Assembly (NCBI RefSeq): GCF_004698125.1
Contig: NZ_ML214297.1
Location: 1,364,001-1,428,000, forward strand
Length of the DNA stretch: 64,000 bases
Source: Halosimplex halophilum
Lineage (GTDB): Archaea > Halobacteriota > Halobacteria > Halobacteriales > Haloarculaceae
Direction: 5' to 3'
In this document: one piece after another, positions 33,985 through 48,736 of the stretch
Layout of the letters: each line of letters opens with the position of its first letter
How positions within the stretch are numbered: position 1 is the stretch's first letter
The notes under the pieces: model-generated
Databases searched by the model: none
Seen by the model: only the letters and a program-made list of their open reading frames with translations
What the model was told of the DNA's origin: nothing
Translations under genes and position numbers: made by a program

Positions 33985-34093
33985 TTTATAAATCTTTCGC
34001 TACTGAAATGTGTCGTTCGCGAAAACGGCCGTCAGACGGTATTTCGACCGGTGTGTGAACGACTTCCACACGTTACCAACGCGCATTTATAAA
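33985..34093. promoter_or_regulatory. Divergent TATA boxes of tfb and DUF84 genes
   Basis: TTTATAAA at 33985-33992 serves the leftward tfb gene (start 33904). A second TTTATAAA at 34086-34093 serves the rightward gene starting at 34149. Both boxes are perfect palindromes and the surrounding bases are A+T-rich compared with the flanks. Distances imply leaders of about 55 nt and 30 nt, so neither transcript is leaderless. Confidence 0.75.
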
Positions 34094-34148: not shown

Positions 34149-34673
34149 ATGACACGCGTCGCGGTCGGCAGCGAGAACCCGGTGAAGGTCGGGGCGACCG
34201 AGCGAGTGGCGGGCGAGGTGTTCGAGGAGGTCGACGTGGCGGCCGTCGCCGTCGACTCCGGCGTGGCCGAGCAACCCCGAGGCCGAACCGAGACGGTGAC
34301 CGGCGCGGAGAACCGCGCGGCGCGCGCGCTGGAGGCCGACCCGGAGGCCGACTACGGCGTCGGGATCGAGGGCGGCGTCGCGGAGCTAGCCGAGCGACCC
34401 GGCCTCTATCTGGTCATGTGGGCCGCGGTCTCGGACGGCGACGCCCTCGAACGCGGCGGCGGCCCCGCGCTGCGGCTCCCCGACGCCATCGCCGAGCGCG
34501 TCCGCTCGGGGGAGGAACTCGGCCCGGTGCTCGACGACCTGCTCGACACGGAAGGACTGAGCGAACGGGCCGGCGCGGCGGGCGTGCTCACGGGCGAGGC
34601 CATCGACCGCGAGTCGGCGCTGGCCCACGCGGTCGCGGGCGCGTTCGGGCCGTTCGCGACCGACCTGTACTGA
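34149..34673 (+). CDS. DUF84 / inosine-xanthosine triphosphatase family protein
   Basis: A 174-residue protein of the YjjX/DUF84 family, which hydrolyses non-canonical purine triphosphates (ITP, XTP) to protect nucleic acid synthesis. Recognisable features are VAVGSENPVKVGATERV at the N-terminus, DSGVAEQPRGRTET near residue 38, and YGVGIEGGV, with the C-terminal ALAHAVAGAFGPFATDLY. It is transcribed from its own TATAAA-type promoter divergently from tfb. Substrate preference is inferred from the family. Confidence 0.9.
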   Translation: MTRVAVGSENPVKVGATERVAGEVFEEVDVAAVAVDSGVAEQPRGRTETVTGAENRAARALEADPEADYGVGIEGGVAELAERPGLYLVMWAAVSDGDALERGGGPALRLPDAIAERVRSGEELGPVLDDLLDTEGLSERAGAAGVLTGEAIDRESALAHAVAGAFGPFATDLY

Positions 34674-47101: not shown

Positions 47102-47198
47102 CCTGTCGGGGCCTATCGACCGGCGGGGAAAAGCTCTATCGCTTGGCGACGCGGCCCGGGTCGTTTATGCGACGGGCCCGCGAACCGACGGGGTAGCA

Positions 47199-47672
47199 AT
47201 GCTCACAGCGGGGTCCGCCGCGCCCGATTTCATCCTGCCCGGCACCGACGGCGAGGTCGTCCGCGAGTACATGCTCGCCGAGCACACCCGGGACGGGCCG
47301 GTCGTCCTGGCGTTCTACCTGTTCGACTTCAACGAGGCCTGTACCGAGTTGCTGCGCGCGCTCCGGGACGACGACGGCGTCGGCGGCCGCGACGGCGTGA
47401 CCGTCCTCGGGGTCTCCCGCGACAGCGCGTTCAGCCACCGGGCGCTCGCCCGCGAGCACGACCTCCCGTTCCCGCTGCTGTCCGACAGCGACGGGGCCGT
47501 GGCCGAGCGCTACGGCGTCCGGCTCGACGAGCTCGCGGGCCACCGCGACGTGTGCAACCGCGCGGTGTTCGTGGTCGACACCGCCACGACGGTCCGCTAC
47601 GCCTGGGCCGCCGACGACCCCGAGGGCCGGCCCGACCTGGACGAGGTCCGGGCGGCGCTGGACGACCTGTAG
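47199..47672 (+). CDS. Peroxiredoxin (AhpC/TSA-like) family protein
   Basis: A 157-residue thioredoxin-fold peroxiredoxin. The ATG at 47199 is supported by TTTATGC 30 bp upstream and by the standard N-terminus AGSAAPDFILPGTDGE. The candidate peroxidatic Cys48 is in FDFNEACTELL, replacing the usual FTPVC, and Cys120 (HRDVCNRAVFVVD) could be a resolving Cys. It would reduce hydroperoxides with a thioredoxin-type donor. It is somewhat divergent around the active site, so activity should be considered probable rather than certain. Single gene between convergent partners. Confidence 0.88.
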   Translation: MLTAGSAAPDFILPGTDGEVVREYMLAEHTRDGPVVLAFYLFDFNEACTELLRALRDDDGVGGRDGVTVLGVSRDSAFSHRALAREHDLPFPLLSDSDGAVAERYGVRLDELAGHRDVCNRAVFVVDTATTVRYAWAADDPEGRPDLDEVRAALDDL

Positions 47673-47721: not shown

Positions 47722-48312
47722 TCAGTCGTTGCGGCCGATGTCGCGGAAGGTGTCGACGATCTCCTCGAAGTCGGGGTGGCTCTCCTGGAGTTCCCGGCCC
47801 AGCCGCTCGGCCTCGCGCTTGCGGCGCTCGTACTCGTCGCTGTCGGCCAGCTCCGCCGGTGTCAGCTCCGATTCGAGCACCTCGAGCTTCGAGACGGTCG
47901 AGAAGAACTCCTCGAGTTTCGGGTCGCCCGACTGCCGGCCGTCGAGCTGCTGGTCGAGCGTCGACAGCAGCGCCTCGGTCTCGATGGGCTTGGCGAGGTA
48001 GTCGTCGAAGTCCATCTCCAGGATGTTCAGGTCGGGGTCGACGGCGGTCGTCATCACGACGACGCAGTCGTAGCCCCGCTCGCGGATCTCCGCGAGCACC
48101 TCGTCGCCGTGGACCTCCGGCATCCGCCGGTCGAGCAGGACCGCGTCGACGTCCTCGTCTATCGACTCCAGGGCCTCCCGCCCCCCGTAGGCGACCCGCG
48201 TCTCGTAGCGGTCGCGGACCTTCAGCGCGAGCACGTCCGCTACCTCGGACTCGTCGTCCACGACGAGGACAGTCGGTCGGCCGTGGTCGCTCGATGACAC
48301 TGCTCTACTCAC
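47722..48312 (-). CDS. Response regulator with HalX output domain
   Basis: A 196-residue orphan response regulator from a GTG at 48312. The receiver domain (residues ~10-125) shows the acidic pair, the phosphoacceptor Asp61 (VLLDRRMPE) and Lys near YLAKPI. The C-terminal ~60 residues are the helical HalX domain found only in haloarchaea (KLEVLESELTPAELADSDEYERRKREAERL), thought to mediate output by protein contacts. No kinase is adjacent; the hybrid kinase at 42024 is a candidate partner. The gene is divergent from the PhiH1-type HTH gene and they share an intergenic region with an operator-like palindrome. Confidence 0.9.
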   Translation of the reverse strand: MSRAVSSSDHGRPTVLVVDDESEVADVLALKVRDRYETRVAYGGREALESIDEDVDAVLLDRRMPEVHGDEVLAEIRERGYDCVVVMTTAVDPDLNILEMDFDDYLAKPIETEALLSTLDQQLDGRQSGDPKLEEFFSTVSKLEVLESELTPAELADSDEYERRKREAERLGRELQESHPDFEEIVDTFRDIGRND

Positions 48313-48420
48313 GCTCGGGACCCCGCGGGTTTCACTCTGTTGGCCCGAGTACCACGTCTCGATCTCCCGGACCGGACCCTCTCGCTTTCGGACCACCGAC
48401 CGGCTCCCGCGGCCGACAAC

Positions 48421-48449
48421 GTTATATGTGAACACGTACCATGGTACGT
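48421..48449 (+). promoter_or_regulatory. TATA box plus 16-bp operator palindrome
   Basis: GTTATATG at 48421-48428 is followed by ACGTACCATGGTACGT (48434-48449), a perfect 16-bp palindrome overlapping the expected transcription start of the winged-helix gene at 48461. A repressor bound here would block initiation. The same region faces the divergent response-regulator gene. Confidence 0.7.
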
Positions 48450-48460
48450 CGGGGATACCG

Positions 48461-48736
48461 ATGTCACAGCACCCAGACTGGTTCCGCAGTGCGGACGCAG
48501 CGATACTCGACCACCTCTCCGATGAGCGGCCGACGTACGCGCCGCTCGTCGCGAACCGTCTGGGGATGCCGACGGACTACGCCCGCGAGCGGATCGACCG
48601 GCTGGTCGAGCGCGGGCTGGTCGAGCCGGTGACCGCGGAGACCGTCTACCGGATCACCGAGCGCGGCGAGCGGCGGCTGGCCGCCTACACCGAACAGGAG
48701 GGCGCGCCCGAGCCCGGCCTCGTCGCCGGCAACTGA
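48461..48736 (+). CDS. PhiH1-like winged-helix repressor
   Basis: A 91-residue protein starting MSQHPDWFRSADAAILDHLS. It has the compact winged-helix fold seen in haloviral PhiH1-type repressors and many haloarchaeal regulators: helix 1 at ~10-20, an HTH at ~26-45 (YAPLVANRLGMPTDYARERI) and a wing ending with the YRITERGERRLAAY motif, plus a short tail. The 16-bp palindrome over its own start site suggests autorepression. It may also control the divergent response regulator. It is similar in type to the element-encoded repressor at 1200, but its base composition is host-like. Confidence 0.88.
   Translation: MSQHPDWFRSADAAILDHLSDERPTYAPLVANRLGMPTDYARERIDRLVERGLVEPVTAETVYRITERGERRLAAYTEQEGAPEPGLVAGN

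Follow-up and report, generated by a model that had tools for sequence, protein, structure and literature searches.

A conserved element spanning the TATA box of a small haloarchaeal winged-helix gene, a candidate autorepressor operator

Background

Lrs14, LrpA and MDR1 are small archaeal DNA-binding proteins whose sites lie over or just behind their own TATA boxes and which act by promoter occlusion, the commonest mechanism described among characterised archaeal regulators (PMC5569661). The same would be expected at the locus described here, although its protein belongs to a different lineage and its site is a different, haloarchaeal one. Two regulators of Haloferax volcanii also bear comparison. 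OxsR is, like our protein, a single-domain haloarchaeal winged-helix regulator, and a position of its motif downstream of the BRE/TATA region goes with repression; it differs in being a TrmB-family protein with a CG-rich motif and many targets (PMC9426492). CsmR has a site adjoining the TATA box, as here, but its motif, TATCA(N4)TGATA, with 65 peaks, differs from the element at 48418-48443 that we describe (PMC13286277). Among the open-licence papers searched, no title or opening of an abstract describes this element or an operator of this winged-helix protein, so that, as far as open papers go, the element is probably new in detail and ordinary in kind.

The locus lies in a 64-kb stretch of Halosimplex DNA, the whole of which we call the window. 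We think it probable, at roughly six chances in ten, that positions 48421 to 48449 serve a small winged-helix protein of MarR fold as its autoregulatory operator-promoter, with the protein binding over its own TATA box.

The winged-helix protein

The gene (48461-48736, plus strand) encodes P0001, the 91-residue winged-helix protein that is our candidate autorepressor. Its AlphaFold2 model (mean pLDDT 87.3, pTM 0.82) has the winged helix-turn-helix fold, with predicted helices at residues 10-21, 27-34 and 38-50, strands at 54-56 and 62-65, and a C-terminal helix at 67-80. The top matches in structure comparison are MarR proteins, E. coli MarR among them (Z 12.7, rmsd 2.1, 80 aligned), and Foldseek gives a best E of 1.0e-3. 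The Sulfolobus proteins BldR (3f3x; VIA-align Z 11.5, rmsd 2.1, 80 aligned) and ST1710 (2gxg; Z 11.3, rmsd 2.1, 80 aligned) share the MarR-type fold, but they have 139-140 residues against 91, and the likeness concerns the fold. A MarR-type winged helix can thus be predicted with confidence. At the level of sequence, the best of 19 Pfam matches is DUF2250 (PF10007), at 23.3 bits just under its cut-off of 24.4 (E 7e-05), MarR_2 reaches 20.7 bits, under its curated cut-off of 27, and a sequence search of solved structures returned nothing better than E 0.2.

The original prediction called this gene PhiH1-like, which is a loose description. The phiH1 repressor RepR (MK002701, 34161-34430, minus strand) is also a small winged-helix protein, and a distant relative, 33% identical to P0001 over 81 residues; within the window, to which this comparison extends, it is closer to the product of 1227-1463 on the minus strand (43% over 86 residues; 57.8 bits, against 28.5 for P0001). 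P0001 is therefore not the protein of this neighbourhood that is most similar to RepR, and the gene at 1227-1463, the second small winged-helix gene of the window, is, judged by similarity, its real PhiH1-repressor-like gene. P0001 matches a PHROG family of transcriptional regulators at 5.7e-14, 11 phage records match it weakly (best E 1e-2), and of three annotated plasmid relatives one carries the label DUF2250 and the others are called hypothetical. The setting of the gene itself is chromosomal, with genes for a redoxin, a HalX regulator and cytochrome oxidase nearby.

Orthologues were found in 44 of 146 genomes of the family (E<=1e-8) and, in a sample of 392 genomes from the order, in 46 (E<=1e-12). 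One close orthologue (at least 76% identity) is present in each of the eight Halosimplex genomes, that of the window among them; the named relatives, 77-81% identical, come from three Halosimplex species and from a Halobacteriales MAG assigned to Halosimplex in the genome collection.

A conserved element over the TATA box

An operator-like element lies over the promoter of P0001 and is conserved together with the gene. It emerged from an ungapped alignment of 68 orthologue promoters (67 distinct, L011 and L089 being one locus), occupies 48418-48443 on the plus strand, and reads approximately AnTGTTATRTGnTAnCA-N5-CA. With positions 484xx given by their last two digits, the conserved letters are A18, T20, G21, TTAT at 22-25, R26, T27, G28, T or G at 30, A31, C33, A34, C40 and A41. 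The element includes the conserved TATA box TTATAT (48422-48427, plus strand), identified by resemblance, and extends 14-16 bases downstream of it. Scored leave-one-out, 55 of the 68 promoters (the locus L011/L089 counted twice) reach at least 20 bits, and the loci with good sites span five family groups (f1, f5, f12, f14 and f17).

The element can be recovered across lineages, with the qualification that the register of the alignment was seeded from the window and that only the weights of the matrices were held out in the cross-family tests. A matrix built from 21 sites of the same family outside Halosimplex, scanned over both strands of the 64 kb, gives 31.4 bits at 48417, against 7.3 for the runner-up; among 28 loci from other families it reaches at least 17 bits in 24, falling short in L085, L097, L100 and L105. 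Conversely, when the matrix is built on 26 sites from other families, the window's site scores 19.4 bits and the next best place 2.0, and the site ranks first in all eight Halosimplex loci.

Such an element might also be read as a core promoter of an unusual kind (BRE, TATA box and initiator) without a dedicated regulator. The TATA box does lie inside it, at a fixed spacing from the presumed transcription start, but the constraint reaches well downstream of the TATA box (A31, C33, C40 and A41), and no other place in the 64 kb comes near the full score. There is also the behaviour of the 13 loci in which the full element scores below 20 bits. When the 15 positions 48428-48442 are used alone, with the TATA letters omitted, they still come out among the top two places of the locus in 10 of these 13, a support that is smaller in independent terms since L044-L046 are closely related to one another and the loci L111 and L112 are short. 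The downstream part thus persists in several loci that lack the TATA letters, which suggests a protein site and not a core promoter alone, and we consider the core-promoter reading very improbable. In L052, L085 and L097 a good match to the element was not found, and in L021, L022 and L053 an AT-rich stretch, possibly a TATA box, can be seen by eye 3' of the element.

A point against a protein site is that the downstream half, taken alone in the window, scores 17.6 bits at the site but also 14.7, 14.7 and 13.4 bits at 680, 34072 and 47192. The match at 34072-34086 is just upstream of a TTTATAAA stretch that precedes the gene at 34149, and that at 47192-47206 covers the beginning of the redoxin gene, at about 47199.

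The element has a dyad, in which the arms TG-N5-TGnT and AnCA-N5-CA (48420-48441) meet at 48430.5, and this centre is the most symmetric one both outside Halosimplex (0.53) and inside it (0.52). In 42 non-redundant promoters from outside the genus, the pair G28-C33 is kept in all 42, G21-C40 in 41, T20-A41 in 34, 30-31 in 34 and T27-A34 in 30. In the eight Halosimplex promoters, pairs 28-33, 29-32 and 21-40 are complete in 8/8 and 27-34 in 6/8, while the outer pair 20-41 is kept in 3/8 and the central pair 30-31 in none. Since 42 of 2000 column shuffles reach the observed value, the dyad is modest, and likely real rather than certain. An alternative dyad noticed by eye in L042 and L043, TATGTG-N9-CACATA (centre 48433), is weaker over all loci (0.41 vs 0.53) and was set aside.

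Occurrence of the element in other genomes

The whole-genome searches used patterns taken from these very promoters, so the counts that follow bear on the restriction of the element, not on its discovery. The pattern GTTATRYGNNANCANNNCNCAT has 13 matches in the 146 family genomes, 11 of them directly upstream of an orthologue, with no match for the control. Allowing at most two mismatches, GTTATRTGNGAACANNNNNCATG has eight matches in the eight Halosimplex genomes (one for the control), seven at the winged-helix gene and the remaining one at a membrane-protein gene; the genome G001 has no match at this threshold. In 392 genomes of the order, TGTTATRTGNTANCANNNNNCA has 26 matches (one for the control), half of them upstream of orthologues; the 13 found elsewhere precede other genes or no clear gene, and none of them precedes a recognisable orthologue. 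By these sequence counts, the element is nearly restricted to the winged-helix gene.

The 13 matches elsewhere would suit a scenario in which another regulator binds the element and the winged-helix gene is merely one of its targets, the more so as the binding of P0001 to the element is itself something we infer. What speaks against this scenario is that the element stays with the winged-helix gene while the neighbouring genes change, and the simplest reason for this would be that the gene brings its own binder. We therefore regard control by another regulator as improbable, and keep P0001 as the candidate binder.

The window's genome holds one second site, at C2:619994 (L069 1501-1522, G000), upstream of the gene for a predicted membrane protein, P0003, which may be PsiE-like. 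We did not retain this gene as a target, since it recurs in three further Halosimplex genomes (G001, G002 and G007), none of which shows, by eye, the full element. Near the equivalent place at the membrane-protein gene, L120 and L121 have other short inverted repeats. Three of the 13 matches elsewhere come from genomes of one family group (L141, L142 and L143, at about 1501-1522), where TGTTATATGSTANCANATGTCA lies over the start of one and the same small gene (71 codons), which may also use a site of this kind.

The palindrome

The original prediction placed the operator in a perfect 16-bp palindrome, ACGTACCATGGTACGT, described as following the TATA box and lying over the start site. The palindrome is indeed there, at 48434-48449 (centre 48441.5), after TTATAT and 5' of the winged-helix ATG (48461), but the start codon lies outside it: the palindrome stops 11 bases short of the ATG and just upstream of the presumed transcription start. 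Far from being common elsewhere, it occurs once in the 64-kb window and once in the 4.47-Mb genome, which holds no copy with one or two mismatches, the nearest places having three. It overlaps the conserved element by its left part only, the two centres being at 48441.5 and 48430.5.

Could the palindrome itself be the operator, at least in Halosimplex? It is perfect, single-copy and situated between TATA box and transcription start, and a 27-bp stretch from TATA box to start would be expected to contain about 0.002 such palindromes, before allowing for the many promoters of the window. Its placement is thus less ordinary than the number of such palindromes, since the window has seven perfect palindromes of at least 16 bp, against a mean of 5.3 and a maximum of 10 in 60 dinucleotide-Markov simulations, which is not above chance. 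Three further observations were counted in its favour: the genus consensus at the palindrome, GTACCATGGTAC; a paired change in G007 (T37 to C and A46 to G) by which one of the core pairs, and with it the symmetry, is preserved in a site where another core pair is broken; and the rank of the palindrome centre, second in symmetry in the eight Halosimplex promoters (0.50, against 0.52 at 48430.5). Against this, the full palindrome is perfect in one of the eight Halosimplex genomes, the window's own, and its 12-bp core in two; the remaining six promoters keep 5, 5, 5, 5, 3 and 2 of the six core pairs, the aligned element varies most in the left arm, at 48437-48439, and the 42 non-redundant promoters from other genera show no symmetry at the palindrome centre.

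Because it is not kept across orthologue promoters, we have rejected the palindrome as the main reading, and an operator confined to it appears unlikely, if less so than the other alternatives considered above. We see it as a Halosimplex-specific overlay on the downstream edge of the element, which may be an extra contact or an accident. The prediction of an autoregulatory operator survives in part: the stretch 48421-48449 holds a strong candidate for one, and the part that evolution has kept is 48418-48443, not the palindrome. Attention accordingly shifts from a striking local palindrome to an evolutionarily kept element.

A possible autoregulatory switch

In 17 of the 55 aligned loci, the first ATG follows the base equivalent to G48421 by 30-31 bases. 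This is the spacing of leaderless haloarchaeal genes, and would put the transcription start of the winged-helix gene in the window at about 48450 (48449-48452, plus strand), with a leader of about 10 bases. In the mechanism that we favour, a dimer of the winged-helix protein would bind the element at 48418-48443, TATA box included, and would keep TBP and TFB off the protein's own promoter; when the protein is scarce, or is released by some signal, transcription would proceed from about 48450. Repression by occlusion, as described in PMC5569661, agrees with a site placed over the TATA box.

A broader idea, which we put forward tentatively and hold to be somewhat less probable than its opposite, is that of an undescribed autoregulatory switch present throughout the Halobacteriales, in which a small MarR-fold family would have a dedicated operator, TG-N5-TGnTAnCA-N5-CA, with the TATA box in its left half, such that repressor and TBP would compete for the same bases, and in which some genera would have the operator separated from the TATA box. 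If this is true, these genera offer a natural series of promoter-operator arrangements, and the loci with the operator apart from the TATA box could show how operator position sets archaeal regulation. In any case, the element is a testable candidate operator for a widespread, uncharacterised family of haloarchaeal proteins.

The divergent HalX gene

The palindrome had also been proposed to repress the divergent response-regulator gene, which encodes receiver and HalX domains (47722-48312, minus strand, with a GTG at 48312 as the presumed start). The comparison of loci does not favour this. Among 48 orthologue loci with flanks of about 1.5 kb, HalX is found in 10, namely the eight Halosimplex loci, G014 and G023; in G033 a redoxin gene like that of the window adjoins the winged-helix gene, HalX was not found, and the element is kept. 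The HalX gene starts about 120 bp away and adjoins a conserved block of its own (48320-48347, minus strand), presumably its promoter region, and the Halosimplex intergenic region consists of this block, a variable and gapped middle and then the element, with no element seen that the two genes would share. With HalX a neighbour in so few loci, at this distance and with its own block, joint repression is unsupported; HalX would be a neighbour outside the proposed circuit, though control at a distance is conceivable. In G001, a MAG, the HalX-side block is partly deleted, and the HalX homologue matches in two pieces only (L016), so that the gene may be broken or misassembled there.
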